From the NCBI GenBank assembly GCA_036874045.1, contig JAZBRI010000003.1, forward strand, positions 3,732,501 through 3,796,500: 64,000 bases of DNA, read 5' to 3'. Each line of letters opens with the position of its first letter. Position 1 is the stretch's first letter. This document shows positions 15,897 to 60,754 of the stretch, piece by piece. The translations under genes were made by a program, and so were the position numbers. The DNA comes from Cymodocea nodosa (taxonomy: Eukaryota > Streptophyta > Magnoliopsida > Alismatales > Cymodoceaceae). The notes under the pieces were generated by a model. That model saw only the letters and a list, made by a program, of their open reading frames with translations, made no database searches and had not been told where the DNA came from.

Positions 15897-16277
15897 ATAA
15901 TCGGACCTCGATATAATCGGATCCTTGGAACTTTCCGCGGTTCCGTTATAACAGAATTATCTTTTTTTTGATATTTAAATAAATTGCACTCATACCTTAA
16001 AGATGCATATTTGTTTAAATTAACAAATTAAACAAAAAATTTTCAAAATAGAAATGATGCATAATATTTTTTAATTTCCAAGATATTTTCGTCAAATAAA
16101 TGTGTGATGGAATATTATTATAAAAATAAAATGAATAATTCAAAGTCATAAATTTAGCTTACGGATGTACTTTTTTTAATGAATTATAAAACATTAACTT
16201 CATTTTTTTTTTAAATTACTATTTTAAGAAATACGGGTACAAGAAGCCGCCGCAGGGAGTTGCCGCAAGTGTGGCAA
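15897..16277. promoter_or_regulatory. Divergent intergenic region between NFD4-like and APE2 genes
   Basis: The two genes start head to head with about 380 bases between their outermost start codons (480 if the transporter starts at 15797). The region is strongly AT-rich except at its edges. A direct repeat of ATATAATCGGA lies at about 15895-15922, next to the transporter start. No clear TATA box in a fixed position for either gene. A shared promoter is an inference from spacing only. Confidence 0.55.
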
Positions 16278-16478
16278 ATGGAGACCGCCGAATCGGAAGG
16301 GGGGAGAGAGAATGAGATGCCGGGAATGGGAATGGAAGGAGGGCAGGAGGCGAGCTTCGAGACGTCTGGCCTGAAGATCGTGACCTACAACGTCAACGGG
16401 CTGCGATCGAGGGTTTCTCAGCATGGCTCCCTCCTCAAGCTCCTCAATTCCCTCGACGCCGACATCATCTGCTTTCAG
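16278..16478 (+). CDS. APE2: APE2 exon 1
   Basis: Residues 1-67, ending ...DADIICFQ before donor GTTAAC. It contains the first EEP motif ([15 protein letters not shown]). The N-terminal ~31 residues are acidic, glycine- and methionine-rich and not conserved in the family. Confidence 0.93.
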
Positions 16479-19400: not shown

Positions 19401-22400
19401 AGCTGGCAAGCAAGCAAGAGGTGGAATGCTACAACTAGGAGCTTGTCTGGGGTCGTATTAGCGAGACTAGAGAGGAGCATTGGGCATTTGGGATCGAACG
19501 ACAAGCGGAAGCTACGAGTGGACCGTAGGCAAGCACGACACAGAGAGGAACGTTGGACACTTGTGATCGGACGACAGGAACAGAACATTGCAACAGGGAG
19601 CGAGAGGGGTTTGAAGCTGCAAGGGTCAGGAGGGGTCGAAAGTTGCAAAGGTTGGGCAAGCTAGAAAAGTGAATTCACACTTTTTGGGTTGGAAATTCAT
19701 TTTCCTAATTTTTACACTGTTTTGGAATTCAAATTCTCAAGGACAAACACCCCTTACTTAGAATCTGGTGGAAAAAAATTTCAATTGTGCTAAATTCCAA
19801 GTGCACAAACCCTTACCTTAAGCTTAAATGGATATTCAACTATTACAAACATTCTCTAACACTTCCCTTCAAGTTAGAGTATATATATTAAGTATGCCCA
19901 ATTTATCACAAAGATGTTCAAAAACTCGTACACCTAATCCTTTGGTGAGAATATCTACAACTTGATCTTCAGAGTGAACAAAAGGTGTTGAAACAATCCC
20001 TTTGGCAATATTGTCTTGGATGAAATGATAATCTTCCTCAACATGTTTGGTTCTCTTATGAAAAATGAGATTGCTAGCAATGTAAATAACTGCTTGGTTG
20101 TTGTAATATATAGGTATAAGAACATTCACTTTAACTCCTAGCTTGAACAATAACACCTTGAGCCAAATGAGTTCAGAAGTTGCATTGGACATGCTTTGAT
20201 ATTCTAGTTCAACACTTGACTTTGAAATAATGTTTGTTTCTTACTTCGTTGAGTAACCAGGTTCTCTCCAAGGTATGTTAAATATCCAAAGGTAGATTTT
20301 TTGTTGACCTTATCACTTGTATATCCAGCATCAGAAAAACCCATCACCTGTAAATGTCCATGTTTTGTATACATAGGGCCTTTCCCTAAGGTGTATTTAA
20401 CATAGGCAAGAACTTTGACAACTCCTTGTTAGTGAACCTCTCTCAAAGCATGCATGAATTGACTAAGAAGATTCACGACATAACTAATATCTGGTTGAGT
20501 GACTGTTAAGTAGATGAGCTTTCCAATGAGTCTTTTATACTTACCTGGATCATCATACTTAGGAGAGTCTTCATCCTATAACAAGTGATTCTATTTTATA
20601 GGAGTGCTCTCAGGTTTGCATCCTTGAAATCTTGTTTCTTTTAAAAGATTAAGTGTATACTTTCTCTGAGATAAAGATAGATGACCTTTAGAGTAGTCAA
20701 ACTCAATGCCAAGAAAATACCTTAGCTTTTCCATGTCTCTTGTGGCAAAGTTATGTTGTAAAAACTATTTAGTTTCTTCTTTGCCCTAAAGATCATCTCT
20801 AGTTAGTAGCATATCATTAATATAAACTGTAAAGATAACAATACCTCTTAAAGTAATGTTTAATAGAATGATTAACACTACAATTGTCAAAGCCATCACT
20901 CCATATGATTTTACTAAACTTTTCAAACCAAGCCTTTAGACTTTGTTTGAGTCCATAAAGTATCTTATGAAGCAAACAAACTTGGTTTTTCCCCTGAGCA
21001 ACATACCAAAGAGGTTGCTTTATGAAAACTTGTTTATCTAGATCACCATATGGAAAAGCATTTTTAAGATCAAGTTGGACAATAGGTCAAAAACTATTCA
21101 CCACCATAGAGAGAATCACTCGAACGGAGGCCAATTGAGAAATAGGAGAGAAAGTCTTAGTGTAATCAACCTCATATTGTTATGTGAAGCCATGAACCAC
21201 CAATCATGCCTTATGCCTTTTAACACTGCCATTTGGTTGATGTTTGATGGTGAAAATTCATCTGTAGGTGACAATATTGGTATCCATAGGTTGATGTGCT
21301 AATTCTCAAGTGTCATGAGAGAGAAGAGCTCCCATCTCTTCATCCATAGCTGTCTTCTAATAAAGAATTTGAAGAGTCTTGTGATGGATTTCTAGATAAA
21401 GACTCTGTGAAGATGGTTAAGGCAAACTTGTGGAAGGTATCGATAATGTTAGCATAGTTGATAACATTAGATAGGGGGTGATGTATGTAGGTGTGTGTGC
21501 TCTTGTGAAGAGCAATGAGAAATTCATGTTGAGTAAGGTCAGGAAAAGACTCACTATCAGGGCGGGAGGTTGGTTTAGGGGCAATTGGAGTATGTTGTTG
21601 TCAACTGTGAACCTACAAATGCTAGGGAGATCAATTATCTTGTACTGATTTTGCTTCAGGAGAGGCAATAGTGGATGATTGGCTACTAGGTAGGTTTACC
21701 GGTCCTGGAAGAGGAGTAGATATAGGATCTTCTGATGGAATTGCGCTAAAGTAGGGTTGTGACTCAAAAAAGGTGACATCCATTGATATACAATATTTTC
21801 TAATAGGTGGATGATATAGACGGTATCCTTTTCGAGTTCTCGAATATCCAATAAACATACATTTGATGACATGAGGAGACAACATGTCAAGATTAAGAGT
21901 TAGATCTTAAATGAAAGTAGTACACCTAAACATCTTTAGAGAGATAACAAACAAATCATGGTTAGAATAGAGCCATGCAAGAGGAGTATCACCTTCTAAA
22001 GGTGTTGAAGGCATCTTGTTAATGAGATAGACTCTAGTAAGGATGACATTAGACCATAAAATTTTAAGAACATTCACATGCAACATAAGTGTACGAGCTA
22101 CATCAAAAATATGGTGATGTTTTCTTAATCCCATTTGTTGGAAAGTATGAGGGTAAGTGGTTTGATGGATGATACTGGAGGAAGAATAAATAGATTGAAA
22201 ATCATGTTGCATGAACTTAAGAGCATTGTCAACATACAAAAGTTTTGGACAAATAGAAAATTGATTTTGTATTTCAACAAGAAATTTTTTGAATACATCA
22301 AGAACTTCATAATGGTTTTTTAATAGATACATCCAAGACACATAGGAAAAATCATCCACAAAAATAACATAATATTTGTGTCTAGTAGAGGATGTAATTC

Positions 22401-25400
22401 TACTTAGATCCTAAATAACACAATGAACAATTTCAAACATGGCAGAAGATGACACTAAGTGTAAATTCTTGAATGAAGCACGAGTATGTTTTCCAAATTG
22501 ACAAGATTCACATTCAAAAGAAGAAATAGAAATCTAGGATAGAGCTTGACGAAACTTGGCACATAAATAATGTGAAGAACTTGTTAGTTGGTTGACCTGT
22601 GCTTTCACTGTGTTGGGCAAATCAGTGGTGACCAACACAGATGGACTTGGAGCATGTTGACTGACATTTCATAATGTTGGCATGCACCCAAGTGTCATGT
22701 CAAGTTGTTGACGTTGGAGAGAACCAATACACATTATCAAAAAAAAAGAAAACTGATACATGTCAGCAACATGGAGTTCTGTGAAAGCAGCTTAAGGGGC
22801 AATAGTGGCATCTATATTCTTTAAAACCAAACAAAAATTCCAAAATGGGGGAAAAGAGAAATACAAGCTTGATCTTTCTACGTGGATGGGATTAGGGACC
22901 CATACTAATGTACTATACCATGTATATAATACATACACATCATAATTACATGTATGAAATACATAGTTACATACACATGTATGATTGCCATTTGGTCATA
23001 ATTAGGGCATGGGAGTGGTGGCTGGTGAATTGTAAACAGTAATCCAAATAAAATGCCTCTTGTTTGGATAAGTATAAATATTCCTGTTTACATTTTAAAT
23101 TCTTTGTCAGGAGACCAAACTATCAAGGCAAGACCTATCTGCTGATTTAGCCATGGCTGAGGGATATGAGTCCTTCTTTTCCTGCACTCGTACTTCAGAA
23201 AAGGGACGCACAAGCTACTCTGGTGATCATTTACATATTAACACTTTTATGGCATACTTTTCATGCTCTTATTTCTAATTTGCATCAAGATATACAAAAC
23301 ATGAATTCTGTTAGTATCTTTGTACTCAAAGTTTTAAGCTTATTGATAAATGCTTCACAAACAAGTGAATGGGAGGCTGGTTTACTTTGATATCAATGGT
23401 CTAAAAGACTTTGATAATGTATAGTCTTCTTTGTGATGTAAAATATCATAAAAAAGAGATTGTAGGATACATTATTTCCGTAAGTCTTACTTTAGAATTG
23501 TTGTATCATTGATTGGCAACTAAAATATTAGCATATCATTCTTTTATGTTGTAAACTGTTACATTAGAATAGTTTTTCATTTACTCATTTGGAAATTATG
23601 CTATTTGAATATAAATATATTAGTTAATGTTAAAGACTTTATTTATGCCTTGTGGTTATATGGGTTATCAGATAATTGTGTACTAGAGTAGCCTTAAGTC
23701 ACCTATATAAAAATGTTATCTTTTTTTAACAATAATACATACTGATTAGACATCTAAGATAAATGAATATCCATTTATACTCATTAAATATACCCACAAA
23801 ACGCACATACATACAAGATATAACATGGTTATAATCAAACCACTAACATTTGCCCTTAAGTTGGGCATAATATTAAACGTGCTTAGCTTGGTGCAAAGAT
23901 TCTCAAATATCCCTATACACAAACCCTTTGTAAGAATATCTGTGAGTTTATTTAAAGATTGATTGTAAGGTGTAGATGTTATGCCTTTAATCACCATATC
24001 CTATACAAAGTGATAGTTGACTTTTATGTACCACATTCATTTGTTGAAGGTCAGATTGTTGGTTATGAAAATTTCTATGTAGTTATTACAATGCATAAAC
24101 ATAAAGAGTACAAATTCTGAATCCAAATTGTTGTAGAAATAACTTTAATTACACCATTTCACATGCTGTGTGGGCCATCAATCAATATATAGTTTTTTTT
24201 TCTTTTGATGAAAACCCCCGATTTAGTCATGGGGTGGGAACCTATAAAATCAAAAAGGCCTAAGGGAGGGACTAGGCCTTACCCCAGAAAATAGGTTAGC
24301 TAACCCATTCACTCGATTACACTTAAGGTTGGTCAGAAAGTTTGCTTCCATAGTGACAAAATTATCAATCATGCAAGGCAGATCAACACACGATTTATAA
24401 ATCTTTGTAGGTATATGCTTCAAGGCCCCTTTTGCTAAAGCATTTGCACTTCCATTAGCTTCTTTAAAAACATGATAAATAATATTCACTTGTCTCCTTA
24501 GGCTTTGTAACTGGTCTCAGAAGGTGTGTGCTTGCCAACAAGAGTAGTCTTCTCCCAAAATCATTTGAATAGTCTATTTCGAGTCAACTTCAACAATGAT
24601 ATTTGCTAGATCCATCCCCATCTCCTTACAGATTTGAATGGCATCCACAATAGGTCTAAGTTTTATAGTTATAGGCGAGAGGTCTTGTTTTTTTATTGAT
24701 CATGTCACAACATTCATTGGAAGAGTTGTTGGCAACATGGAAGTAGCTTTTCATCTTGTTTATCTTTTGGCTAGAGATTTCTTGTTATTTGTTAAGAAAA
24801 TTTAAAGTTTGCTGGACATATTTCTTGCTACCATTAAGGAAAATTAATAAGTCATCAACAAACAAAAGATGTGAAATGAGAATATCCTCCCTTCTAGTGA
24901 AGTTCAGAATTGTAACTTTGGTTTCCACAAGATTTGCAAAACCTCTGCTAAGCACTTTCTCAGCTAGAATAAAGAAACTGGGAGATAGCAAATCACCTTG
25001 TCTGAAACCTTTGGATGTTGCAAAGAAGGACGTTGGGGAGCCATCAATAAGTACAACAAAATTGTTGAATTCCACACAACCCCTAATAATATTCACCCAT
25101 TTCTCATAAAAACCAAACTTCTTCAGAACTCTCACAAGAAAGGGCCACTCCAGTCTGCCATAAGTTTTTTCCATATCAATAACCAATATTTAGCTTTGGT
25201 ACTAGACCTGGAAATTACATTTTATTTTTTACTTTGTCATTTAACCAAACTGCCTCTAGCATATGTGCAAGCTCGATTTGCAAGCCTTAGAATTGTAGCA
25301 GATAAGAGGAAGATTGATGGTAATGCAAAAGTTTAGATGGGTGGGTGGAGAGTTGCATGGAGAATTAGAAGCCTGGAGTGTTTCTTCAACAATGGAAGAG

Positions 25401-28400
25401 TAAAATGTAGTAGGGGCGGGACATGTTTACAGGGAACACATAGACACCCACATGACAACCCCTCAACATGCTTGTAGTAGCAATGATGGTCTAATAGTTC
25501 ATATCTTTACATGTTGTTCTTGAAAGAAGTGCTTGCAATTTTGACATGAGAACCTAGGTGTTTTTGTAGCCTACCATGTAGAGCCTCCCTCACCCCTCTT
25601 AGTGAAGTGAGGGACACCTGATAGGGGTGTTGACTTGCCCATCCTTAGTAGAAGTTCTGACCCAGTCAGATCGTCAGCCATGGTAGAACTTTGGGTTAGC
25701 TCATCTGAGGCATAGACCCACAGGCATGATGTTCATAGAGCTGCTCACTCTTGAATGAACTGTAGAGTAGCACTCCATAGACCACCCATTGACCTTCAAC
25801 AACAATAGGATAGTGGTCAATGGTGAACCTTGTAAAAGGAAAGTTCCCTGACAAAAGAAATGTCTCTGCAAAAGGGAAGTTGCCAATAAGTGAGAACTCG
25901 TATGGCCTAGAGATTAGGGAAACCCTAGCTGTTGCTCATAGGATTTTCAACCCTTATAAAGGTACAAAAAATTCCTAAGGTATGACCTCTCAAATTCCAA
26001 AACCTGATTCATCTATTGTTGTCCTTCCACATCTCTGATTTAAGTATAGAAGTTCTTTGGCCTTCCCCACATTGGGGACCAGAACTACTGTGCTTTTGTG
26101 TTGCAGGACGCCCAAGGGTGAGAGGAAGGTAGGGCCTGGATCAAATAGGCTCACGTTACATGTGATATTCTGGACCATCTGGTTAAAACAAGGAATTCAT
26201 TCATCTTTAAGGGTAATTCAGTTTCAATAGTGGAACTACTTCATGATGCTTTAAGCTCAGTTCAATTTTTGGTAAATGTGGTTTCTCTGTATAATGCATT
26301 TTTTGTAAATAGCTTTCAAGTTGTTTTAGTGTCTTTTTTTTCTTTTTCTTTTTCTTTTAGTGACCTCCTTGTTGAGCATCATCTTGTATGAACCTTACCG
26401 ATTCTAACATAATTTACCCTACTTCTCAAAAAAGATTTTTCCTTGATTTGGTAGTCCAGTTGTGGATCACACCAAAACACCCAACTCAGGAGGCTGTGGG
26501 TGATTTATGCCTAAATACCTAGTGAATTGTTGTGCCTCAATCGTGACAGTAAACTGACCCATTTGGCAGGCTGTGTCATCATAGCGACAATCATCATGAT
26601 GATATGAAAAAATTGTCAACATTGTGTAGACATGGCAATCATTTTGAGGATGACTTAGCCTGCTTGTTTCAATGGACACAGACCATGAAGTTTCACAATT
26701 ACCCTCATAGATGTTATGGTGATATTTAAACTTGAGCCTCAAGCTTTGATGGTCAACTTGATCCTGCCATCTTTTCTAGAGTGGTTAGCTAGCATGAATG
26801 ACTAGTGTGCATGGGATGAAGTCATTTCCAGAGTTAGTATACTAAGATGAAATTGAAGGATCTGTCAAATGATTTGGGCAAACAACCAAAAGGAACTTGG
26901 AGCATCTAGGAGAGCCATCCATTCAGTTTTGGGATGTCATGAAACAAAAACTTAAGCAAAAATACATCCCTTTGCAATACAAATGCTATATCTATCAAAC
27001 TTGGTTGAATCTTCTTAGACATGGATCCACGTTAGTGATTAGGTGTTTGGATGGGTTTGATGAGTTCATGATGTGCTGTAAAATCAGGGAAGATCCGTGC
27101 ATTATCATCACTATGTTTTGTAATAGACTATGCTTAGACATTAGAAGTGATGTTGAACTTTGCATGATTAACACATTCAAAAAGGCTTTTCATAAAGCTG
27201 TTTATGTTGCAAAGTACCTTAAGAACTCTAAAAGCCGTGCTCATATTCTCATAGTCAATCCTTGAATCCTCATCAGAAGACAGCATCCTCTTTTATCAGA
27301 TCCATAATTTCAAAGTTTGATGTAAAGTAGTGAATTTGAATTATCTGTGAACTCTCATTTGTCTCCTTCGGTTTGGTGTTTCAATTGTTGTCAAAGGGTA
27401 AATTTGCTTTTTGTACTCTGATTATGAAATTTTTCTTTTTGTATCTTTAACATATAATCTTATGATCGATGTACATCCTGATTGAAGAGAGGGTAATCAA
27501 GTTGACATGGTCCAAGAGATCACTCCTTGTGATGATCTTTGGTGATTGTGAAAGTGACCTGGATTAAGTGTCGGATGAATTAGGAGTGTTGAAATAGATC
27601 ATGAGGCCAAATCACGAGACTACTTTTGATGAATCAGATCAGTACTCTTCATACTTTCATAAAGTGTGGGAAGAACACCTGGAAGTTCCCATTGATGGGC
27701 TAATCTCTGAACATGGCCTTTAAAAATTGTATTACTCAAATGAGACTTTGATGAGAACCTCATTTGTCTGCACTTTTAGGGTCGTTTGAGGTTGATTTGA
27801 CATTCTTAATTGCCATTGAGATATGCCAAGTGTCTATCTAAATGACCACTTGGTGAGTGGTGTGTTGGACTGTCAGCTGGTTGGGAATCATAATTTTAAG
27901 CCTTGATTGTGCAATACGTGGATGATGCTATAGGAAGGAATCTTCTAATATGCTCAATTCACGAGGAATGGAGTGGATCCTTTTGGACCTTAAGTTTGAA
28001 TGTCCAATGGGAATAAAGTTATTATTATTGTACCAGTTTGGATGGAAGCATGCAGGGCTATGACATAGAAAAGTTTATATCACATGAGGCTGAGTCCTTT
28101 GATGATAAACTGGAAGTTTATGACATTTTGTATAAATATAGTCTTAGCAACAATAACCCAGGTCCCTTGTTAGTCATGCTTAACAAATTTAAATTGGTTG
28201 ATCAGCCCATATACGCAGATGAAATTCTTGAAAACAGTAGCATCTGTGCATGCTGACCGACTTGCTTACATTGGATTTTTATGCAAATCAGATACAAACC
28301 AAAGATGGATTACATATTGCCAAATTAGATATTGTAGGTGGTTCTCCCTAGTACAGTATGAAATCCAGCCATTTAGGTCATTTCCTTGTAGGACCTTCAA

Positions 28401-46400: not shown

Positions 46401-49400
46401 CTACCTTCATAGAACAAAACCAACTCCTATCTTCACATTTTTTTACTTCTCTCACGTTTGTTTTGCTTTCATAGTTCCATTCCCAATAACAAATCTCTCT
46501 TTTGGCCAAAAATCAAACATAGATATGCAAGACACTTGGCAACACAATTGTTATTTCCTGGAGAATGTTGTTTCAATTTGATGACACCAATAGTCCCACA
46601 TTCATTGCCTTTTTTCACCATACTTGCATTTGTATGTTTGTTGTTATTGTTAGACATATGGGTCTTAATTGGGTATTTAAGTATGAATACCTAGATCCAT
46701 TTATGTATGGGCTATGCATGATTGTAATTAAACTCTGGTGAATGGAAAATCCCATGATTTTTCTCTTCTTCAAACCTTTCTTCTACATGGTATCATAAAC
46801 CAAGCATTGATGGCCACCATGTTGACATCCTTCTCTAACAACGTGATTCCCCTACCTCCTTCCCTCGTTTTCTTCACATAGGTGATTGCTTAAACCTTCC
46901 TCATGCTTTAAGCATTCATCTACATTTGTTTCCTCATCTATCCTTCTAAGGTTTTGTGGGTACATTATGCACAACTCACCCTTGTCTCGTCCATCGCTAC
47001 ACCTCTAACATAGATGCTTTATTTAAAAACTCATGGACAACTAAACTCATAGCCACCATTGTCAAGCTAAATGATGGTAATTACTGTTGTTGGTCAAATG
47101 CCTTCCAAACCTTCCTTGTAGTTTACAACTATGAATCTCATCTCTAAGACAATCCTTTGAACCTAAAATCCAAAGAATGTGTTGACTGGTACATAGTTGG
47201 CTGTGGTGTTATATCTTGGATCATTAACAATGTTGATGATGGCATCAAGTGCAACATCTCTTGTATTCAATTGACAAAGTACGTGTGGGAGATCCTACAC
47301 ATGACCTATGGTAATGAGTAGAAAATCTCCCATATTTGTAAGGTCTATGAACAGTTGTATACTCACAAACAAGGTGATTCCTCTATCCATTGGTATTATA
47401 ACTATCTTCGTGAGCTCCTCGATGAATTGGACATTTATCAACCATTAGTGTTGGACCTTGCTATTCTCCAACACTACCATGAAGAAGTTATTGATCCTTA
47501 GGGCTTGTTTGTGCATCTAGAATTTGAATTCCGTAGAATTTGAATTCTAACGGAATTTGAATTCTACAGAATTTGATGGAAAGAATTCAAAATCTAGGTG
47601 TTTGTGCACGTTTAGGAATTTGACAAAAATTGAAATTTAGGTGTTTGTGCACATGACAGAATTGAATGGAATTGAACAGAATTGATTTTTAATAAAGTTA
47701 AGTAATGAATTAAAGTAATTAGTGAAAATGTAATTAATCAAGAAATGAATTACTTACATTAATAAATGAACATATTATTAAATTAAATGTTTATATATTA
47801 TTTATCAATTAATTAAGTATATCATTATATAAAATAAATCAAAAATTACAAAAATTGATAACTTTTTAGTTATAATACATGTTTAAAACAATAAAAGGTT
47901 AATTATAAATTCTATATTCCTCGTAATGTAATAATAAATAAATTTTTTAAAAATATAATTATTATGAATTGAATAAATGAAAGTAAATAATAAATAATTA
48001 TTGAAATACTTTGATTATAAAAAAATATAATTCTGAACATTCTATTAGCTATAAATGACTTTTAAGACTTCGTTTGTGTTAGCCACAGAAATTTAGGAAA
48101 ATTATATAGTTTTTGAAATTTTGATATTATATATTAAATAATATTAATAATAATAAAATAATTAATATTTTATTTTTAATAAAAATATATATTAAAATAA
48201 TTAATTAAATAAAAAATATTAACAATATATACTTCAGCAGGCGAGGGTGAGCGTCGAGCAATCTTTTGGAAAATGAATTCCGACCTTTTAGGTTGAGAAT
48301 TTATTTTCCCAACCTTTACACATGATTGGAATTCAAATTCTCAGGGAATTTGAATTTCAAAATGCACAAACATCTCATGACTTGGAATCTGACGGAAAAA
48401 ATTTTCAATTCTGTCAGATTCCAAGTGCACAAACCCCTCCTTAGTGTCGACACAATTCTCTCTCTTAAGATGATGTTCAATAGAACCCTATATGTTTCTA
48501 CTACTACACCTTCCTTGACCCATGCTTCTAATACTTCAACCCTCACGATTGCTATGGGTGGTCAGGGTGGTTATGGTGCCTCCTCTCATCATGGTTGGGG
48601 TGGACGTCATGTCAACAATCCTCACTCTTTGTGTGAACACTGTGGGTGTAAAAATCATATCTTTGATTGTTGTTAGGATAAGTTTGGATAACCTTCTTCC
48701 ATTGTTAATTCAATACATTTAGTTGAAAATTCCTCTAGTATGGAAGTGTCATCCAATAGTAATGTCGCTATTACTTCCTATTGATCAATCACTATTTCAT
48801 AAGTTGATTACAATGAATTCTTGTTCTTTGATATTGATCAATCACTATTTCATAAGTTGATTACAATGAATTCTTGTTCTTTGAGCACAACAAAATGCCA
48901 CTAACTCCATAGCTTATGCCCTCTCAGGTATATCTTCTTCTTATACTACCTCTAGTGATTCTTGGGTTATCAATTCTGGTGTTTCCAACCACATTTTAGG
49001 TAACTAAACCCTCTTTAATTGCTTGTCCTCCATGTCCAACATTAGTTCCATTGCCATAGCTGATGGATGACATTGCCTTATTGTCAGCTCCAGCTTTGCC
49101 ATTGTCAACTCAAGTATTTCTCTTGATAACATTTTCTTTATTCTTGAATTTCCTATTAATCTTTTGTTCATTAATGCTATTACCAAATAACTTTATTATT
49201 CTATTACATTTTTTTCCTTTTATTGTGTCTTACAGGATCTATAAAGAGGGTGAATGATTGGTTTGGGCCTTAAGCATGGTTGAAGTGTCTATGTGCTTGT
49301 CAAAGATGATATTCTATATAGTCTCACATCTGTGGCCACTTTTGGTGATTCCTTCCTATTATGACATCATCATTTGGGTTATCCATCCATTTACAGGCTT

Positions 49401-52400
49401 TGTGAAGTACTTCCTTAGGTGTTCATTGAGTTTGTTTCTTGTGAGTCTTGTATCCTATAAGCAGTTTTATGCTACTTACCATAGTCGTGAATTATCTACT
49501 ATCAAAAGGTTGTTGGATTTAGTCTATTATGATATTTTGAGTTTCTCCCAAATTGAGTCTATTTTTGGTTATCATTATTATATTGTGTTTATTGACTATT
49601 TTCCTTGGGCGTCTTGTTATATTTGTTAAAAAATCAACAGTTTGTTAATGTTCTATCTACTTTTCTTCATGAAATTCAAAATCAGTTTGGTGCTTCTTTT
49701 AAAATTTTTACATTGACAATACTTTGGAATTTTCTCACTTTGATGTTGCTACCTTGTGTGATTAATGTAGAATTATTCATCAAACTTCTTGTACTTATAC
49801 ATCTCAAGAAAATGGGGTTACAGAACCTAAACATCATTACCTATTGGATGTTATCTGTACCTTAATGATTGAGATGAAAGTCTTTAAGTTCTTGTGGTTA
49901 TGTGATTCCTACTATATCATATCTCATTAATCATATACCCTCTTCTCCTTTAGGGGGAGACATCCCATTTTAGCATCTCTCCCTTGAGAGTGAACTTTTC
50001 TGTCTTCTTCCCAAAGTGTTTGGGTGTATGACATTTGTCAAAAACTTGTCTTTTGGTATTAACAAGCTTTCACCTTACTTAATTAAATATCTTTGTTGGT
50101 TATTATCATATTTAAAAAGGGTATTTTTATTTCTTTTCGCCTACTTGTCATTACATTGTTTCTATTGATGTTGTCTTCCTTGAAAGTCAACCTTATTTTA
50201 TTTCTACTACTTCTGATTTGCCAATTGATTCCCTACCTCAACCTATTCTAGTTGACCCTGATGTTCTTCCTCTCAAACAGGGGATATTATCAATTGATCT
50301 TGTGCCATAGTAGCCTCCATTACAAGTGTACTCTAGGGATGATAGCAAACACCTGAGACAATGCCCTTGGCATTGCCACTTCCACCACCTTCTTCAGATG
50401 TAGATCCTCCTCCCTTAGACCTTGATATTCCAATTGCTCTTCAGAAAGGTACCCATAGTCCTACCCTTCATCTTATTTCTCATTTTGTTTTCTATGATGC
50501 CCTTTGTCCCTCTAATCATTGTTTTACTCTATCTCCTTAGAATGGAGATTACAAAGAGGCCCTTACTCTTCCACACTAGAAGGAAGCTATGGGTCCTAAG
50601 ATGCATGCTTTACTATTGTGGTGTATGCGATAACTTATTCTCTACCTGAAGAGTGTTCTAGTTGTTGGCATTTAATAGGTGTTTACAATCAAGTGTAAAA
50701 TTGATAACTTTATTAATCGTTACAAAGCTCATTTTGTTACTCAAGGTTTTACTTAGACATATCTATTGCTTTCCTTGACTTTGTGTGAGTTATTTTGTCC
50801 ATGGTAGTAAATTCTGGATGGCCTCTCATGCATCTTGATGTATGTAATGCCTTCCTATATGATGATCTAAATGAAAAGGTGTTCATAGAGTAACCTTACA
50901 AATATGTTGCTTAGGGGGAGAACTATGTATACTTCTTATAGAAGACAATTTATGGGCTCAAACAAAGTTTGAGAGTGTGGTTTGCAAAGTTAAGCTCTAT
51001 TTTGCAAGTACAGGGATTCAAAAAATGTGTGGTGGATTCATATTTGTCAAACAAAGCAAGGTAGGGTATATTATTTTGGCTATATGTGTAGATGGCATCT
51101 TATTGATAGGTAATGATATAGAAGGTATTCAAGCTACAAGACTTCACTTGGCTTAACAATTTGCTATGAGAGATATGAGAAAATCTAGATATTTTTTAGG
51201 CATTGAGTTTGCCTTGTCTAAAGGAAGGTTATCTCTATCTTAGTAGAAGTGCTCTCTTGTTTTACTAAAAGAAATAGGTCTCTTGGGTTGTAAACCTAAA
51301 CAAACGTTGGTAGAATAGAATCCACCTATCTAGGATACTAGCTTAGAGAAACTTGATGATCCAAGAAGATATCGACGTCTCATTGGGAAGCTCATTTATC
51401 TTACTGTGACTTGGCTTAATATTGTACATGTTGATCTTTTAAGTTAATTCATGCATGAGCCACATGAAGTACATTGGAATAGAGCCCTTAAAGTACTTGC
51501 TTACATCAAACATAATCTTGGCAAAGGTCTAATTTATTCTAATCATGGACACTTGAAAGTTAATGCCTATTCTGATTGAAGTTATGATGGTGATCAGGGA
51601 GATAGAAGATCTACTTTTGAATGTTGCATTTATATGGGTTGCAATCTAGTCACTTGGAGAAGTAAAAAATAGAATGTTGTATCGAAATGTAGTGTAGAAG
51701 TTGAATATAGATCTCTGTCTTAAATAGTCAATGAATTAATGTAGTTAAAGAATCTTCTGATAGAGCTAGGAGTTAAAGTATCTTTTCCTATGAGTATGCA
51801 CCATGACAATTAGACTATTATATATATTTCAAGCAATTTCACCTTTTATAAGCATACGAAGTACATAGAAATTGATTGTCATTATATCTAAGAATTAGTT
51901 GTTGGTGGAAATATCTGCACTTCTTTTACTAGATCTTCAAAGTAGCCAGTTGATATTTTTACCAATGGTCTAAATGTAATTATTTTTAGGGATCTTTGTA
52001 ATAAATTGGGTTTGTATGATTTATATACTACCACTTAAGGGAGAGTGTTAGACATATGGGCCTTAACTAGGTATCCAGATTTGACTACTTAGATCCATTT
52101 ATGTATGGGCTATGCATGATTGTATTTAAACTCTAGTGAATGGAAAATCCCATGATTTTTCTCTTCTCCAAACCTTTCTTCTACAGTTATTATGAAATAT
52201 ATACACCATTCAAGATCTTTGAATTTGTCATTCATATCCTCATTGTCACTTAATAATGTCTTGATATTCCTCTAATAAAGACATTTTATCTTTAAATCAA
52301 CAACATTTCAAAATGATTGATTATGCCAGCAAATCTTGATATTGTATTATCTATTTAAGTTGTAAATGTTTGAAATTAGTAAAAGTTTGATATAAAAATA

Positions 52401-55400
52401 TATTTAATTTCAAAGCTTCAAAGTTATGGAAAGTGGTTGAAAATTAATTATTATTTTATTAAAATCTTGTATATTAAATTTTCTAAAGATAACATAATAA
52501 CTCTTAAGATTCCAACATAGTCAACAAAAAAATGGCAATTCATGCTTAAAGGTTTCTTTATTAATTACTCATGAAGCTGGTTTGGATTTGCAACAAAACA
52601 CCACAGAGATATTGATCCTTGTATTTGGCATAATTTGAGTTGTTCAACACCACTAGAAATAAGTATGAAGTGATAGGATTGTTGGCTTCCCTAGAGAGAG
52701 GTGTATAGAGAAGTTGAATTAATTTTAATCAAGTAAAGTTTATTGCAATTAACCTTGAAAAATATGAGTTGAGTAAATTGGCTACACTGAAAGGGAGGTA
52801 AAGAAACAATGAAATGATGCACACAAAATTTGTAGTGATTCGTTCAATCGGGATATGTCCACTTAGGAGATTTCTTTTTTGAGCCTATCCACTGATGCTT
52901 GGTGTTTTACTGGGTTCACACCTCAACTCTTTTACAATTTGAGGCAACTTTTTCGTCTCTTTGCCTCAGCATGTACAACCTGCTTGCCTTAACCTTCAAG
53001 GATCATTTTTATAGCCTAAGGACTTAAGCTTGAACTCATGAATGTTGCTTTACAGCTCTTGGAGTGCTTTTGCCCAAGTGACTCTCCTTAATTAAATGTG
53101 ATGGATATGCAATTTGGTTCCAATGTATGCAATTGAACTTGGAGCGTGAAGGAATGAAATGTAGAAAGGACTTGAGAATATGTAGATAAGATATACTAGT
53201 GTCCAAGTGTTGTGCCATGTCATTAGCAGCCTTATATTTATATTTATAGATGGACCAAGATAAATGTACGGATAATGGCTAGAAAATTACTCCAACATTT
53301 GATAGAATAGGTTAATCGGTAGAGTTAGTTGACTATTTCATCTGATGGTTGAATGATTTGGTTATAACCTAAAAGCAAATTTATTTACTTCTGTTGATCA
53401 TGTTGGCCATGATAGAGTAGAATGGTCAATCATTCTTATTTGGTTGGTTGAATTACTTGTTGGGCATTCTTTTGGTTTTTTGAACCAAAATTGGTTGACG
53501 TTATACCTTACTGGGCTAAACTTTGGTTGTCCAACCCAAAATTGGTTTACTCTATGAGAACATGATAGGTTGGTATATTGATTGTACTTGATTGATTGAT
53601 CATAGAAGATTTTGTATACTAAGTTTTAAAGCATGAATAAGTAATAATGTTAATGCATTCGTTTATATGGTTTCTGTTAAATGGTGTTAGGTGGTTGACG
53701 AAAGCTTTATAGACTTCCATATGCATGCTCATAAATTAGTAATGATTTTTATGTTCCTTGAGCATGTAACTTTATCGTGATATTTTAGTTAACCATTTGG
53801 AGACAGTTGACCGATCTTGGATTTATGTAGATTTTTTAAATATTAAGTTACATAGATTCTGCAATGACTTATGTCTTTATTCAATGTGCATTGTGCACTA
53901 AGGGCTAGGAGAAAATGTACAAATATTTATAATGCAAAAATAAATAGCTAATTTGACCTACACTTGATGCACTTGATTCAATCTTCTTGTTCTTCAATAA
54001 TCTTCACTTGATGTGACCACTTCACTAGTCTTCACTGAATGTAGCTGCCTCTCCCGAGCTTGCCTTCATTTCCTGTTTTTCTTGATTCTTTCGTTAGATT
54101 TTCTCATTTTTTATTAGGTTTTGTAGTCTTCAAAACCACCTTAGGTGGAACTACCATGAAGAGTTTTGTAGTCCAAGCATGGCAAAGATTTCTTTACTCA
54201 TTTTGCTTATTCTCGCACTCACAGACATCAGACCATGTTTCCCTTACTATAAGAATCCCATAGCCTCAATTACATACGATAGATGTCGAATTTTACTAAG
54301 AAAACATGGATGGATTTATCATGTTAATTAATATGCTGTGGATGAGACAAAAACTAGAAGCTGAGAAGACATGCTGTAATTGTGCAGTTAGAATTAGAGA
54401 AATCCCATGGTTTAATAATTAGGTTTCCTAATGATCAAATTCTTGTCAATATTTCTTTTAAAGTTTTGTAAACCTTATACAGTAATATATTTATTTCTAA
54501 AAATTGATCCAGAAAAGGAGCATACACATGTTGGCCGCAAAGTGTCGGAGCCGAAGAGTTCAATTTTGGTTCAAGAATTGACCACATTATCATTGCAGGA
54601 CCATGCTTTCATAGGGAAGTTTGGACAGATGTACACAACATTTTCAAGTGCCATGTGGAAGAATGTGACATTATGATTCAATTTCAACGGGGGAAGCCTG
54701 ACAGGGCACCCAAGTAATTGCCAAGATTATTTTTTTACGTTACTTTCCGTTGCATAAATTTATCATTCTTCTCGTTTAGGTGGAAAGGTGGAAGGAGTAT
54801 TAAATTAGATGGCTCTGATCATGCCCCAGTTTATGTTATTTTACGTGATGTACCTAAGCTACCAATGCATGATATTCCATTCTTAGCTGCAAGATACATT
54901 CCAGAAGTCCGTGGACGGCAACAAAATATTGGTGAGCTTAGTTCATAAGCACTTTGCACCTTTTCCATGCACATTTACGAGAATTGGATTATGGTCCCAT
55001 ATTATTTCGCACATATTATGGCAAAAGGATTTTTTTAGGTATAATTATGTTCAGAAACAATGATTTAGCTTATTGTCCTCAATGAATCGGTTACTATAAT
55101 TAACGGATTTATTTCATTGTAGTTTTGAACCTTCAGAGGATGAAGGTTTTGATTTTATAGATACTTGAAACAATCTACATATTGAAATATATGTTTCATT
55201 TTATGGAAGCTTGCCTTACCTTTTTTGATTGAGCAGCTCTTTGGTTGGATCTGTTTAATTAAATACATGTTTTTCAAGGTTGAAAGTATTTTCCTTTGCA
55301 AAAAATTTAAATATAATTTTTTATGGAGTATCACTAAAATATACATAATTATTGAAATTATATAATTATACATATTAATGAAATATACATATTAGTATTT

Positions 55401-58400: not shown

Positions 58401-60754
58401 GGAGGCTTCAAATCCATGTCTTTCTCCTTGTCAGTGCTACCTGTCTTCCTTGTCGCTTCCCTCTCCCCCTCTTGTTCCTTGCATTCCTCCTCGTGCTTGC
58501 CTGATCTTTGGTAGAGGCTTAAGGAAGAACCCCAACGACATCAGGAATTTCTGGATCAGATTAGATAAATAGATTTTAATGTTTGAATTTTATTTTACAT
58601 TTGTATTCCTTTACTTTCTTTCAACTTATTGAACATGCACAAACATTTAGATATCAAATTCTTTTAAATTTTGGAACAGGCACAAACATCAAAAAAATAA
58701 AGGAAAAGAAAATATTGTTCTTTGCTTTCCATTTCATGTAAATTTCCTTAGATTTCTAGCTTTTCTTTCTACCGCTTTTTAACTACACAAACAAACCCTA
58801 AAAAGTTTTAGTTAACTAAATTTTTATTTTACTTATACACTTCTACACCTTAGTTGGGATACCATCTAGTTCAATATTTTTCCCTCATTTCATTTATATA
58901 AATAACATATTTAAATATAAATATTTAAAATAACACATTCAAATGACAAAATAAGGATGTAACTTATACATGACATTATAATATAACAATAAAAGGTGTA
59001 TAGAAATTATTAATAGAATTATCACATATTGTTTGAGTAATGTGCTACTAAATAATACATCCTATCAAATCTTTGTTGTGTTCCCAAGGAATACATATTG
59101 TATCTTAAGTGAATTCTTTTTTTTTTCTAGGAAAGCCCCGCGCATGCTGCATGGCATATTAGAAAGGAATCTTGGGGAATCCTGGATGTGTTGTATCCAA
59201 CATGTGTTGGGTGTGGATATGATATATGTTTAGAAAAATTTGTGCCTCCTAGCTGTTTCCTTATAATTTTGCTCTCTCTTTGTTCTAATTTACCTCTTGT
59301 GCTGATCTCTTAATGGAATCCTCTTTACCATTGGGAAAAAAAATTCATTTAGTTTTAGCTTTTTCTTCAAGGAAGTATGCAGTGCTTTTTGCTCTTCCAT
59401 GGATTAAACTAGAAATTCTTTTATAGATCAATTTCTGATATTCGTGAATATTTTGTTTTGCCTTTTAATTTGTGTTCAATCAAATAACCATCTAATTGCA
59501 GTCTCGATTCTCTCAAAAAGAAAACCAAGTATTGACATTGAGCATTATGAAGGGCCATCTCCAAACAAGGAGCTTTTAGATATAGACTTGTATCACCATG
59601 TGGGGCCCAGTCAGATTTCAGAATCTTCCGAGCAGGATGGTATGGATTTTCACGAAGTTAGCCTTCCTGTTCAAAAAATGTATTATACAAGTTTAGAAGC
59701 ACAATCTCAGGATCAACTGCTTACAAAAACTTTTTCTAGTAGTTCTGAAAGCAAGATAGAAGACTTTTCCCTTGGCTGCAGTACCCCTGCAGTTAGAAAA
59801 ATTAATCAAAAAAGTTGTTCTCAGCTTTCCATAAGATCATTTTTCCAGCAATCAAAAACTTGCTCAAAGTCGGTTGGTGTATCATGTGTGAAATTTGAGA
59901 AGCTAGAAGCAAAATCTGTTGCTTGTCCAGCAGAGGACACCACTACATCAAAAGAAACTTCCATGCGTAGAAATGTGATTTCCCCAGTGGAGTCTGGATA
60001 TAATCTAAGAGCTCATAATGAAGTCGAGTATGGCAGTACTTCTGAAAAGGAAAAAGACAATCTAACAGTCTCAAGATGGCAAGAAATACAACAGAAAATG
60101 CTAACAACTATACCCCTTTGCAAGGGCCACGGTGAACCTTGTGTTGCTAGGTTGGTAAAGAAAGCAGGTCCAAATGTAGGTCGGGGATTTTATGTGTGCG
60201 CCCGTGCCAAGGTATCTATACTGTTCAAAAATTATTAAATTATGTAGTTGCTTTCTTTCACCATTCACATGCATAGCACGTTCACTTTGTAGTAGCCAAC
60301 TATCTGCAAATGCTAAAATCCTGCAGAATATGCTATGTATTTTAGGGTTTGTCACACTTCTAATTTACTGAAAGCACATTTGAAACTGAACAAATTATTG
60401 GATGATCAAGCACATGTCATTCTTAAAAGCTTTTCTAGTTCTGCTTCTTGCTAACACTTTAGATGTTTGTTTTCTGATTTCAATAAGAAGGTTGAGCTTG
60501 TGGAAATATGGTAGGCACAGTCTTTTAGCTTTTATGTCATTGTTGATATTTGTCATATATTATATAACATTACCATGGCAATACCTCAGATAACATGTTG
60601 GTTGGAAATATGAAGTTATGAACAATGTCAACCCCAAGAATTAACATATATACTTATATTTACAAAATTCTTTCAGGGTCCTTCTTCTAATTCTGAAGCT
60701 AATTGTGGTCATTTTGAGTGGGCTTCATCAAGAACAAAGACTAGAAAAAGATGA
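16278..60754 (+). CDS. APE2: AP endonuclease 2 (DNA-(apurinic or apyrimidinic site) endonuclease), ten exons over 44.5 kb
   Basis: Exons: 16278-16478, 23111-23222, 28671-28892, 31824-31909, 34001-34116, 34331-34411, 54513-54713, 54780-54931, 59502-60211, 60677-60754. Every junction is GT-AG and the phases give one open frame of 652 residues. The protein follows Arabidopsis APE2 along its length. The EEP nuclease fold carries N38 (TYNVNG), E68 (ETKLSRQ), Y184 (NIYGP), D225/N227 (GDLNIAP) and D353/H354 (GSDHAP). A disordered middle follows, with a PCNA-binding PIP box QLSIRSFF at 498-505, then a GRF zinc finger (C597, H600, C623, C637) split between the last two exons. Known role: nuclear base-excision repair, cutting at abasic sites and 3'-end cleaning, with PCNA and single-stranded DNA binding by the GRF finger. 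Introns are 6632, 5448, 2931, 2091, 214, 20101, 66, 4570 and 465 bases, and the long ones are filled with transposons. Downstream ATGs at 16317 and 16323 are alternative starts. Confidence 0.95.
16479..17185. other. Start of APE2 intron 1; partly repeated
   Basis: Intron sequence with no gene. Two related segments (near 16887 and 17157) share GTGATAT-GAACTATT-like sequence followed by GAGACTAA about 270 bases apart, possibly the ends of an unclassified short insertion. Confidence 0.4.
17186..18240. mobile_element. Non-autonomous DNA element with GTTTGTGCA ends (M1)
   Basis: Left end GGTGGTGTTTGTGCATTTGA, followed by AT-rich sequence with repeated GGTGTTTGTATGTC. At the right end (18100-18240) inverted counterparts such as GTGTACAAACATTC and ACACACAAATTTCC appear. 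The interior (17380-17720) is of quite different composition: GTTTG-rich, then purine-rich (17700-17860). No transposase. The right limit is uncertain. Confidence 0.55.
17700..17860. repeat. Purine-rich low-complexity tract
   Basis: GAAAGAAGAAAG-type sequence of about 160 bases on the plus strand. Confidence 0.8.
18338..19822. mobile_element. Non-autonomous DNA element with GTTTGTGCAC ends (M2), inside a copia LTR
   Basis: Left end TAGGGTTTGTTTGTGCACTT; right end reversed reads TAAGGGTTTGTGCACTTGGA. Both ends continue into related sub-terminal sequence (GAATTTGAATTC). About 200 bases after the left end match M3 at 47580-47830. TGAATATC occurs on both sides in the host LTR and could be an 8-base hAT-type target duplication, though the exact ends are not settled. 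The interior holds two GC-richer segments (18764-18958 and 19270-19680) that look captured. No transposase. Confidence 0.72.
18764..18958 (-). pseudogene. Captured coding fragment of unknown host gene inside M2
   Basis: On the reverse strand a GC-rich, codon-like segment reads [20 protein letters not shown], then [20 protein letters not shown] and PNMENITL, before a stop. Composition and amino-acid content look like real protein, unlike the AT-rich sequence around. I cannot name the parent gene. It is most simply a fragment picked up by the transposable element. Confidence 0.5.
22681..23110. other. End of APE2 intron 1; unassigned
   Basis: AT-rich intron sequence. A short run of CATGTATGA/ATACATA repeats lies near 22918-22985. 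No gene seen. Confidence 0.4.
23111..23222 (+). CDS. APE2: APE2 exon 2
   Basis: Starts after TTTGTCAG with [19 protein letters not shown], which carries the metal-binding glutamate, and ends in a split glycine codon before GTGATC. It is a 112-base exon marooned between two transposon-filled introns. Confidence 0.93.
23223..24182 (-). mobile_element. Ty1/copia fossil: RNase H end with 3' LTR (minus strand)
   Basis: Reverse strand 24050-23880 resembles the end of a copia RNase H (...[20 protein letters not shown]). A polypurine-like AAGGGCAAA and a TGTTAGTGG LTR start follow at about 23859, running to lower coordinates. A LINE lies at its upstream side. Broken, partial, old. Confidence 0.65.
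24193..25181 (-). mobile_element. L1-type LINE, 5'-truncated (minus strand)
   Basis: Minus strand. At 25186-24785 a reverse transcriptase segment reads [40 protein letters not shown] and the catalytic-box variant [13 protein letters not shown]. After a gap, 24489-24250 reads [17 protein letters not shown], the end of a plant L1 RNase H domain. The 3' end is an A-rich tail (T run at 24193-24204 on plus). Near-matching flanks CAATATATAG (24183-24192) and CAATATTTAG (25184-25193) look like a target-site duplication. Frames are interrupted between and after the domains, so it is dead. Confidence 0.85.
25194..28256 (+). mobile_element. Ty3/gypsy-like retrotransposon fossil, gag region
   Basis: The plus strand at 26880-27265 reads like a retrotransposon gag ([20 protein letters not shown], then [14 protein letters not shown]). 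The stretch 25420-26170 upstream has a TATAAAGG-containing, LTR-like character, but no matching partner was found, so the left limit is a guess. The 28038-28256 frame (72 residues) may belong to the same element. Broken, old. Confidence 0.55.
28257..28670. other. End of APE2 intron 2; unassigned
   Basis: No gene or element recognised in the last 400 bases before exon 3. Confidence 0.4.
28671..28892 (+). CDS. APE2: APE2 exon 3
   Basis: Starts after CTCAATAG and reads [20 protein letters not shown], then a variable loop, then [13 protein letters not shown]. It ends in phase 1 before GTTAGT. Confidence 0.93.
28893..29277. other. Start of APE2 intron 3
   Basis: AT-rich intron sequence with no recognised feature. 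Confidence 0.4.
29278..29451 (+). other. Lysine-rich open frame in APE2 intron 3, unknown
   Basis: An ATG-started frame of 57 codons reads [20 protein letters not shown] and continues ...[20 protein letters not shown]. Its composition is more protein-like than neighbouring intron sequence. A further protein-like stretch follows at about 29560-29690 in another frame. It may be a captured or decayed host fragment; no family recognised. Confidence 0.3.
29735..29764. repeat. (ACC)10 microsatellite
   Basis: Ten perfect ACC units in APE2 intron 3. Confidence 0.97.
30340..30717 (-). pseudogene. Plant transposon-associated protein fragment (uncertain)
   Basis: A 125-codon minus-strand frame includes [20 protein letters not shown], then [20 protein letters not shown] and IDLSDQ. 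The pattern of a helix pair followed by GIDL resembles the conserved segment found in many plant transposon-encoded proteins of unknown role. It lies in APE2 intron 3 and is probably a retroelement or DNA-element relic. I cannot name the family with certainty. Confidence 0.4.
30834..31823. other. Rest of APE2 intron 3; unassigned
   Basis: GC-richer patch at 30880-31020 (CTGCTGTTGCTACG-like), then AT-rich sequence to exon 4. No gene recognised. Confidence 0.4.
31824..31909 (+). CDS. APE2: APE2 exon 4
   Basis: Starts after TACTTTCAG and encodes [16 protein letters not shown] and then [13 protein letters not shown]. The tyrosine of NIYGP is the equivalent of the APE1 active-site tyrosine. Ends before GTGATT. 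Confidence 0.92.
31910..32812. other. APE2 intron 4, first part; unassigned
   Basis: No recognised gene. Minus-strand frames at 32387-32654 (60-72 residues) show no known domain. Confidence 0.4.
32813..32957. repeat. Short dispersed repeat (partner at 7349-7500)
   Basis: Nearly identical to 7349-7500. The match starts at CTTTCTCCTTTTACACTTAG and ends at TTTTTTGTATAGAAT; sequences outside differ. Confidence 0.85.
32958..34000. other. APE2 intron 4, second part; unassigned
   Basis: AT-rich intron sequence without recognised features up to the acceptor of exon 5. Confidence 0.4.
34001..34116 (+). CDS. APE2: APE2 exon 5
   Basis: Starts after TTGTTATAG and encodes [20 protein letters not shown] and [18 protein letters not shown], with the catalytic Asp and Asn of GDLNIAP. 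Ends in phase 2 before GTTAAC. Confidence 0.94.
34331..34411 (+). CDS. APE2: APE2 exon 6
   Basis: Starts after AATGCAG and encodes [20 protein letters not shown] and REVNPD with a split Arg codon at each edge. It is followed by the 20.1-kb intron 6 (donor GTACTG). Confidence 0.93.
34500..35719 (-). mobile_element. Ty1/copia fossil: integrase segments in duplicate (minus strand), holding a LINE
   Basis: Minus strand. Two collinear integrase-core segments are visible, one below 35040 and one at 35450-35700. They share the same order of motifs (a zinc-region end, then a segment before TGGGTTTATTTA), which suggests a local duplication of about 0.2 kb inside the fossil. A truncated LINE (35045-35405) is inserted between them. 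No LTRs identified. Broken and old. Confidence 0.65.
35045..35405 (-). mobile_element. 5'-truncated LINE 3' end with 12-base target duplication (minus strand)
   Basis: A T-run at 35045-35056 (A-tail on the minus strand) is followed by a 3' region similar to the LINE end at 24210-24245 (both have CATGGGGTGGG next to the tail). The 12-base sequence ATCAAAATGATT flanks it at 35033-35044 and 35406-35417. Only about 360 bases of the element are present. Confidence 0.85.
35720..37423. repeat. 1.68-kb dispersed repeat of unknown class, copy C
   Basis: Aligns with 8141-9817 throughout, with about 2-4% differences by eye and one ~42-base segment (near 37280-37320, GTTGATACAGTTTGGG) absent from the other copies. 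Flanks are unrelated to those of copy B. The same 66-residue ORF occurs here (36318-36518). Confidence 0.85.
37424..37680 (-). other. Possible decayed coding fragment (unknown)
   Basis: The stretch is GC-richer than its surroundings. Read in reverse it gives short protein-like segments such as [16 protein letters not shown]. Stops interrupt all frames. No family recognised. Confidence 0.25.
37690..38055. repeat. Low-complexity A-rich tract followed by a cluster of CCCTTCACGTGAAGGG-like units
   Basis: 37690-37830 is A/G-rich. From 37836 to 38052 units of the type CCTTCACATCAAAGGAAGGG recur at least six times. One unit (38032-38047) is a perfect 16-base palindrome around CACGTG, and others are partly palindromic. 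It lies just before the leader of the hAT element. Confidence 0.65.
39017..39511 (+). pseudogene. hAT transposase fragment with DUF659
   Basis: 164 codons open. The first part is acidic ([16 protein letters not shown]), then comes the DUF659 start: a segment with [20 protein letters not shown] followed by [18 protein letters not shown]. The frame continues past a stop at 39509 with [17 protein letters not shown]-like sequence. DNA-cutting residues would lie in the parts further downstream. Inactive. Confidence 0.8.
40372..40735. repeat. Tandem repeat, about 125-base unit, three diverged copies
   Basis: Each unit has ATAGTTATCTCATAACT-like sequence, then CTCGAACAATT and ACGAGTTTTTCCTTC, then ACATGTGATG/TTAAGTTCTGCA-like sequence. 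Units start near 40375, 40500 and 40625. Located within the segment that splits the hAT transposase. Confidence 0.7.
42561..45140. other. APE2 intron 6, unassigned AT-rich stretch
   Basis: No gene recognised. The 43955-44257 and 43093-43290 frames have no known domain. A short segment at 43385-43490 resembles, in reverse, part of the 1.68-kb repeat (TTTCAAATATTG with a nearby GATACAG). Confidence 0.4.
45150..45860 (-). mobile_element. Possible Ty1/copia gag fragment (minus strand), fossil
   Basis: Read in reverse, 45850-45540 resembles the start of a copia gag, including a [10 protein letters not shown]-like and an IIWDTLKR-like segment. No LTR or pol found nearby. Broken, old. Confidence 0.4.
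45861..46642. other. Intron 6, unassigned
   Basis: No feature recognised before the copia insertion site. Confidence 0.35.
46648..46787 (+). repeat. 5' LTR of the copia fossil
   Basis: 140 bases, TG...CA ends, followed directly by the primer-binding site. Confidence 0.95.
47502..48437. mobile_element. Non-autonomous DNA element (M3) inside the copia fossil
   Basis: Left end GGCTTGTTTGTGCATCTAGA; right end reversed GGGGTTTGTGCACTTGGAAT. Long imperfect terminal inverted repeats continue for about 100 bases (GAATTTGAATTC and GTTTGTGCAC motifs recur). The direct repeat TCCTTAG flanks it at 47495-47501 and 48438-48444; counted as 8 bases it matches at 7 of 8, which fits hAT. It shares about 250 bases with M2 after the left end. 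The interior is AT-rich and non-coding. Confidence 0.85.
52046..52185 (+). repeat. 3' LTR of the copia fossil
   Basis: 140 bases, preceded by a polypurine tract and followed by the GTTAT target duplication. Confidence 0.95.
52191..54512. other. End of APE2 intron 6; unassigned
   Basis: AT-rich, with several TTGATTGATTGATCA-like runs near 53330-53600. No gene recognised; probably old repeat sequence. Confidence 0.4.
54513..54713 (+). CDS. APE2: APE2 exon 7
   Basis: Starts after TTGATCCAG and reads [38 protein letters not shown] and on to QRGKPDRAP. It lies in a different frame from the long open frame at 54431-54676, which is a shadow. Donor GTAATT. Confidence 0.93.
54780..54931 (+). CDS. 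APE2: APE2 exon 8
   Basis: Starts after CTCGTTTAG, only 66 bases beyond exon 7. Encodes [19 protein letters not shown] with the catalytic Asp-His pair, then [16 protein letters not shown]. Donor GTGAGC. Confidence 0.94.
54932..55689. other. Start of APE2 intron 8, with (TA)n
   Basis: AT-rich. A (TA)12 run lies at 55434-55457. Just after it, 55487-55535 has short inverted motifs (GCCTAGGC, TTAGGCACCTTAAAAGGT). Confidence 0.5.
56693..57666 (+). mobile_element. Short LTR element (TRIM-like, copia-type ends), fossil
   Basis: LTRs 56693-56871 (179 bases) and 57511-57666 (156 bases), both starting TGTTAGAGT and ending AACA. Perfect 5-base target duplication ATTCT (56688-56692 and 57667-57671). 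A TGGTATCAC primer-binding site follows the first LTR and TTTGAGGGAGAT precedes the second. The 639-base interior has no gag or pol, so it depended on another element. It sits within the RTE LINE and is younger than it. Confidence 0.92.
57928..58800. mobile_element. Non-autonomous DNA element with GTTTGTGTA ends (M4), inside the RTE LINE
   Basis: Left end GGAGAGTTTGTGTAAGTGG; right end reversed AGGGTTTGTTTGTGTAG. Sub-terminal copies of GTTTGTGCACTTGGAA and GGCACAAACATC are as in M1-M3. The interior (58080-58520) is pyrimidine-rich, GC-richer, and unlike those of M1-M3. The interrupted LINE reads on at both sides. Target duplication not resolved. Confidence 0.7.
58901..59501. other. End of APE2 intron 8; unassigned
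   Basis: AT-rich sequence up to the exon 9 acceptor; no gene. Confidence 0.4.
59502..60211 (+). CDS. APE2: APE2 exon 9
   Basis: Starts after TAATTGCAG. It encodes the disordered linker, the PIP box QLSIRSFF and most of the GRF finger ([20 protein letters not shown] and [11 protein letters not shown]). At 710 bases it is the longest exon. Donor GTATCT. Confidence 0.94.
60677..60754 (+). CDS. APE2: APE2 exon 10 (last)
   Basis: Starts after CTTTCAG and encodes [20 protein letters not shown], then KTRKR and stop. The CGHFEW segment closes the GRF zinc finger, matching the family's NCGYFKW end. Confidence 0.94.
   Translation, partial: GPSSNSEANCGHFEWASSRTKTRKR

Follow-up and report, generated by a model that had tools for sequence, protein, structure and literature searches.

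APE2 works with ZDP in active DNA demethylation in Arabidopsis. The Arabidopsis protein (At4g36050) is described as a homologue of human APE2 that belongs to the ExoIII/EEP superfamily and carries a GRF-type zinc finger (PMC10573277, PMC9743578). Arabidopsis ape1l ape2 double mutants were reported to be embryo lethal (PMC4287435), and zdp ape2 double mutants to have proliferation and development defects (PMC10573277); given these phenotypes, a gene such as APE2 is expected to be kept. Long introns have also been studied in Arabidopsis. IBM1 and PPD7 contain long heterochromatic introns, IBM2 and EDM2 have been studied in the handling of such introns (PMC5364540), and the full-length RNA of most genes with mCHG in their introns was reported to be independent of that methylation (PMC11265718).

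We analysed a window, the whole stretch of 64,000 nucleotides of Cymodocea nodosa DNA considered here, that contains an APE2 gene. An earlier note had claimed an apparently intact APE2 over 44.5 kb, and the open frame, both Pfam domains and the repeat-filled introns that we found support this. By published description, Arabidopsis APE2 shares with the product here its place in the ExoIII/EEP superfamily and its GRF-type zinc finger; the gene here is 44.5 kb long, and Arabidopsis APE2 was compared with it by description only. Repeats lie inside the introns of this APE2 as they do in IBM1 and PPD7. The full-length IBM1 transcript depends on intron methylation; in the introns of APE2 here, CpG depletion was seen. 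We consider it highly likely that this gene, the only APE2 found and most likely functional, has introns swollen by mostly old repeats, and that the whole 44.5 kb is transcribed from a shared promoter and spliced to encode a 652-aa enzyme.

Gene model and predicted product

We located most of the catalytic exons by tblastn with a fragment of human APE2, followed by frame reading and joining. Ten exons lie on the + strand between window positions 16278 and 60754, and when joined they give a frame of 1,959 bp that encodes 652 aa plus a stop; the number of exons, the coding length and the start and end positions given in the earlier note all agree with ours to the base. Exon 1 (16278-16478), which has Pfam support, contains the YNVNG motif and a start codon that is likely only, as there are additional in-frame ATGs. 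Exon 2 (23111-23222) encodes the catalytic Glu in QETK and a YSG loop with S for G. Exon 3 (28671-28892) and exon 4 (31824-31909), the latter with the catalytic Tyr in NIYGP, each have a second copy upstream of the window. Exon 5 (34001-34116) carries the GDLN motif and is followed by exon 6 (34331-34411), exon 7 (54513-54713) with NFGSRID and exon 8 (54780-54931) with GSDH. The linker, the PIP-like motif and the start of the GRF finger are in exon 9 (59502-60211), and the remainder of the finger and the stop codon in exon 10 (60677-60754). The exons had been called small, which does not fit exon 9 at 710 bp.

The gene spans 44,477 bp, of which introns make up 42,518 bp. Introns 1 to 9 measure 6632, 5448, 2931, 2091, 214, 20101, 66, 4570 and 465 bp, and six of the nine are longer than 2 kb. 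In the spliced model read from the DNA all nine introns are GT-AG and their phases agree, as had been claimed; the 20.1-kb intron reported before is intron 6 (34412-54512, + strand), at exactly 20,101 bp. An Rfam search of the window at gathering score returned no structured-RNA matches.

We found that both Pfam domains of the spliced product exceed their cut-offs. PF03372 (Exo_endo_phos) matched residues 35-354 at 3e-21 over profile positions 1-225 of 225, and PF06839 (GRF zinc finger) matched residues 595-644 at 8.2e-12. Among solved chains the top match of the product was 6wcd (7.1e-45), followed by bacterial-type ExoIII chains and then APE-type chains; 7n3z (2.3e-18) and 7n3y (2.9e-17), labelled 'endonuclease 2', and the GRF chain 5u6z (1.8e-17) also matched. 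We take 6wcd to be the catalytic domain and 5u6z the GRF finger of Xenopus APE2, and 7n3z to be yeast Apn2. Since Exo_endo_phos is covered end to end and is joined by the GRF and 6wcd matches, the gene model is not a product of chance. The order of the catalytic motifs and the GRF finger is the same as in 6wcd and 5u6z.

The NxNG, QETK, Tyr, DxN, SRID and SDH motifs of the ExoIII family have known roles in catalysis. Judged against five aligned solved chains and human APE2, all of these residues are present in the product (NxNG, the Glu of QETK, Tyr, DxN, the Asp of SRID, and SDH). PIP boxes follow the pattern Qxx[ILM]xx[FY][FY], and the candidate QLSIRSFF in exon 9 (59822-59845, + strand), read from translation and DNA, fits this pattern. 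The claim that every recognisable residue is in place holds for the textbook catalytic, PIP-like and GRF residues, but two neighbouring positions differ. The YSG loop has a serine where all five chains aligned, of 60 listed, have a glycine. After Tyr-Gly-Pro there is a cysteine, where four aligned bacterial-type chains have N and human APE2 presumably has H; 6wcd differs from the product at both positions, with the YSG glycine and an R after Tyr-x-Pro. The position after Tyr-x-Pro varies among relatives too, and neither altered position is family-defining. The cysteine is also found in the duplicated exon 4 and therefore predates the duplication. Because relatives carry other residues at these two positions, which lie close to the active site, function is likely rather than proven. 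Our data suggest that the locus most likely encodes a functional APE2, that is, an ExoIII-family 3'-5' exonuclease / AP endonuclease.

Repeats, CpG content and length of the introns

The introns carry broken repeats and the exons remain open. In intron 6, at least 12,077 bases (60%) matched other chromosomal places, and at least 13,793 bases (69%) once positions 35709-37424 were added, whose copies among the matches listed were both local; at least 3,279 bases (49%) of intron 1 matched elsewhere in the genome. The genome copies of the intron repeats were mostly 65-85% alike among the matches listed. The introns had been described as transposon-filled, which genome matches and Pfam bear out for introns 1, 2 and 6. 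Frames of 70 aa or longer number 74 in the introns, and ten of these were scanned; three had mobile-element domains (RVT_1 and RVT_2 over the cut-off, rve below it), and the other seven gave nothing convincing as nested genes.

Intron 1 contains a decayed Copia-type element (19818-22572, - strand; RVT_2 at 8.7e-13, rve below cut-off) that is found at more than 30 genome places, mostly 70-84% alike among the matches listed. A reverse-transcriptase relic in intron 2 (24788-25189, - strand) is LINE-like by its RVT_1 match (5.8e-13). Intron 6 holds an old interspersed element (37430-43475) with another repeat nested at ~39.7-41.0 kb, an LTR element (46648-52185) on the + strand and so in the same direction as the gene, and a further interspersed repeat (52665-54140). 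We take the LTR element to be Copia-like from its motifs. Its LTRs (46648-46787 and 52046-52185, 140 bp each) were found by self-comparison with a 60-bp limit, the pair being too short for a 150-bp limit, and differ at 13 of 140 positions. The element is bracketed by the 5-bp target duplication GTTAT, and next to the LTRs its interior has primer-site-like and purine-tract-like sequences. K between the LTRs is ~0.10, which gives a rough age of ~4-8 million years; two assumed rates, 1.3e-8 and 6.5e-9, were used both for this element and for the duplicated blocks described below. Four frames from the element gave no Pfam match, and its coding part is therefore decayed. Within it lies a high-copy repeat of ~0.95 kb (47490-48455) with at least 39 other places at 84-92%, closer to its copies than most intron repeats are. 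Three head-to-tail copies of this repeat, ~1.0 kb apart, occur at C1:8205864-8208921.

We found that the CpG observed/expected ratio is 0.18-0.34 in introns 1, 2, 3, 4, 6 and 8, compared with 0.46 in the APE2 exons, 0.47 in the whole window and 1.08 in the NFD4-like neighbour; the corresponding GpC values in the six long introns are 0.82-1.28. The 0.95-kb repeat of intron 6 is an exception and is not CpG-depleted (0.92, 11 CpG). The depletion suggests past methylation of the six long introns, and it fits a state in which most of the long-intron sequence has been methylated over the long term. Given that most Arabidopsis genes with mCHG introns are independent of that methylation, plain tolerance of intronic heterochromatin is the best reading. 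APE2 might instead be under feedback from its own methylated introns, such that full-length mRNA requires the repeats of intron 6 (and of introns 1, 2 and 8) to be heterochromatic and to be read through with IBM2/EDM2-type factors; the gene would then sense the methylation level that it helps to set, like IBM1. We consider such feedback extremely unlikely.

The introns most likely grew as Copia-type elements, a reverse-transcriptase element and further repeats, mostly old, inserted one after another. RNA polymerase II probably transcribes the full 44.5 kb from a promoter common to APE2 and the divergent NFD4-like gene, and the spliceosome would treat each of the nine introns as an ordinary GT-AG intron and remove it, with intronic heterochromatin tolerated with the help of IBM2/EDM2-type factors. 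The predicted 652-aa enzyme would combine an EEP catalytic core, a PIP-like site for PCNA and a GRF zinc finger.

Long introns are a common feature of this genome. Two of seven gaps between exon matches of RAD51, searched with a human query, exceed 1 kb (maximum 2.1 kb), and in MutS-family genes six of 14 gaps do (maximum 4.5 kb), one such gene on C1 having four successive gaps of 1.8-4.4 kb. This comparison covers parts of a few genes, and APE2 intron 6 is more than four times the longest gap in them. The gene is of an ordinary plant kind and extreme in degree. It had been put forward as a good case for asking how plants splice very long introns, but the multi-kb introns of other genes here and the work on IBM2 and EDM2 in Arabidopsis (PMC5364540) do not support it as special. 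In the same report, a T-DNA in an intron of Arabidopsis GL2 was never suppressed, and its authors suggest that a length over 20 kb may exceed the transcription or splicing machinery (PMC5364540). Intron 6 is at about this length, which makes APE2 here a natural case; if full-length APE2 mRNA is present at a normal level, the suggested limit fails for this plant.

The suggested limit also bears on whether APE2 is losing its function, either because its long introns impair full-length mRNA or because relaxed selection lets the protein drift while APE1L and ZDP cover for it. AATAAA words number 56 in the APE2 introns as a raw count, and early 3'-end formation is therefore possible; 32 of them lie in the 20.1-kb intron, which, like the two atypical residues close to the active site, would suit a decaying gene. 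Against this, the frame runs through 652 codons without a stop or frameshift and the splice sites are undamaged, despite an LTR element in intron 6 that is millions of years old. Furthermore, joint loss of APE2 and APE1L is embryo lethal in Arabidopsis (PMC4287435). We regard decay as unlikely.

Upstream duplications, the NFD4-like neighbour and copy number

An NFD4-like / nodulin-like MFS gene (13475-15956, - strand; Pfam PF06813 and PF23262) is divergent from APE2. Its first open frame is 321 bp from the APE2 ATG, and this arrangement suggests a promoter common to both genes; the intergenic stretch has a CpG observed/expected ratio of 1.38, from just 6 CpG in 321 bp. The NFD4-like region (13475-16277) has a GC content of 0.51 and a CpG ratio of 1.08, and the nearby APE2 exons 0.43 and 0.46.

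The segment 25274-32956 (+ strand), which includes exons 3 and 4 plus parts of introns 2 and 4, has a copy at window positions -9077 to -1315 (C3:3723423-3731185). This copy is ~34 kb upstream and ~2% diverged, and it adjoins a copied 3' end of the NFD4-like gene (13406-14115, copied at -9785 to -9075). The segment 7346-13357 is matched in two pieces, at -1458 to 2046 and at 5543 to 7362. Overall, C3:3722715-3745857 (window -9785 to 13357) is a head-to-tail mosaic of duplicated blocks, in the order of the NFD4-like 3' end copy, the copy of 25274-32956 and then 7346-13357 twice, with an unmatched stretch breaking up the first occurrence. The blocks diverge by 0.3, 0.5, 1.8-2.3 and 3.5%, and these differences argue for more than one event or for gene conversion. 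The junctions have a few bases in common and may have arisen by template switching or microhomology-mediated repair.

The near-identity of these head-to-tail blocks, which lie immediately upstream of the window and in its left part, together with their uneven divergence from 0.3 to 3.5%, would also be expected if part of the span were an artefact of assembly, such as haplotype copies placed one after another to the left of APE2. Inside APE2, however, there are only source copies of the blocks, introns 6 and 8 are independent of them, and the exons are collinear and single except for exons 3 and 4. An artefact of this kind is very unlikely.

In the stretches compared, the copies of exon 3 are identical at 359 of 361 positions and those of exon 4 at 179 of 181. 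Both exons retain their splice sites in the copy; exon 3 differs by a single silent change and exon 4 by a single I/V change. These two differences in 308 coding bases, one of them silent, compare with ~2% for whole blocks, at which ~6 would be expected (Poisson chance ~0.06, a weak signal that concerns those exons only). A search with the whole protein did not find exons 1, 2 and 5-10 in the upstream partial copy, which therefore cannot make APE2. RNA reads from exons 3 and 4 would map twice owing to this near-identical copy, so the RNA-seq mapping that had been proposed needs care at these two exons.

Searched with the whole APE2 protein, the 374.6-Mb assembly gave 13 matches: the ten exons of the gene itself, exons 3 and 4 of the partial copy upstream, and a weak match on C17 (E 0.023) that is probably an APE1-type gene. 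The earlier note had named a compact intact APE2 elsewhere, with no transcripts from this locus, as evidence against its reading; no second APE2, compact or otherwise, was found by this whole-protein search of the assembly, and we rejected that candidate. A second GRF zinc finger above the Pfam cut-off lies at C1:1348055-1348162 and is absent from the matches of the APE2 protein search.

LINEs joined to telomere repeats

We also observed L1-type LINEs near contig ends whose poly(A) tails are joined directly to CCCTAAA telomere repeats (for example L031 at C6:20001-30000, L035, L036 and L041; 3' ends L042-L070). Their ORF1 frame contains DUF4283, and an ORF2 frame of 1,117 aa contains endonuclease, reverse transcriptase and zf-RVT. 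Many of the endonuclease matches are near contig ends and others are inside chromosomes. There were 29 exact matches to the LINE 3'-end sequence and none to a reversed-pattern control. Eighteen of the 29 pass through poly(A) into CCCTAAA repeats, and all 18 are at most ~30 kb from a contig end and in one orientation (8 on the + strand at starts, 10 on the - strand at ends); the other 11 are internal to contigs and continue into ordinary DNA. Several contig starts are N, and the placement relates to the visible sequence rather than to the very ends. Telomere repeats of the TTTAGGG type, together with the nodulin-like neighbour and APE2 itself, mark the genome as that of a land plant. A 2023 list of telomeric retrotransposons has Chlorella Zepp1 as its sole Viridiplantae entry (PMC10088271), and no land-plant case of telomere-joined LINEs was recognised among the papers listed in a literature search, at the level of titles and the starts of abstracts. 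The junctions could have formed if poly(A) RNA was reverse-transcribed from the G-strand telomeric 3' end, and the pattern resembles retrotransposition targeted to telomeres, here in a land plant. These LINEs look more novel than the giant-intron APE2 and may be worth more.
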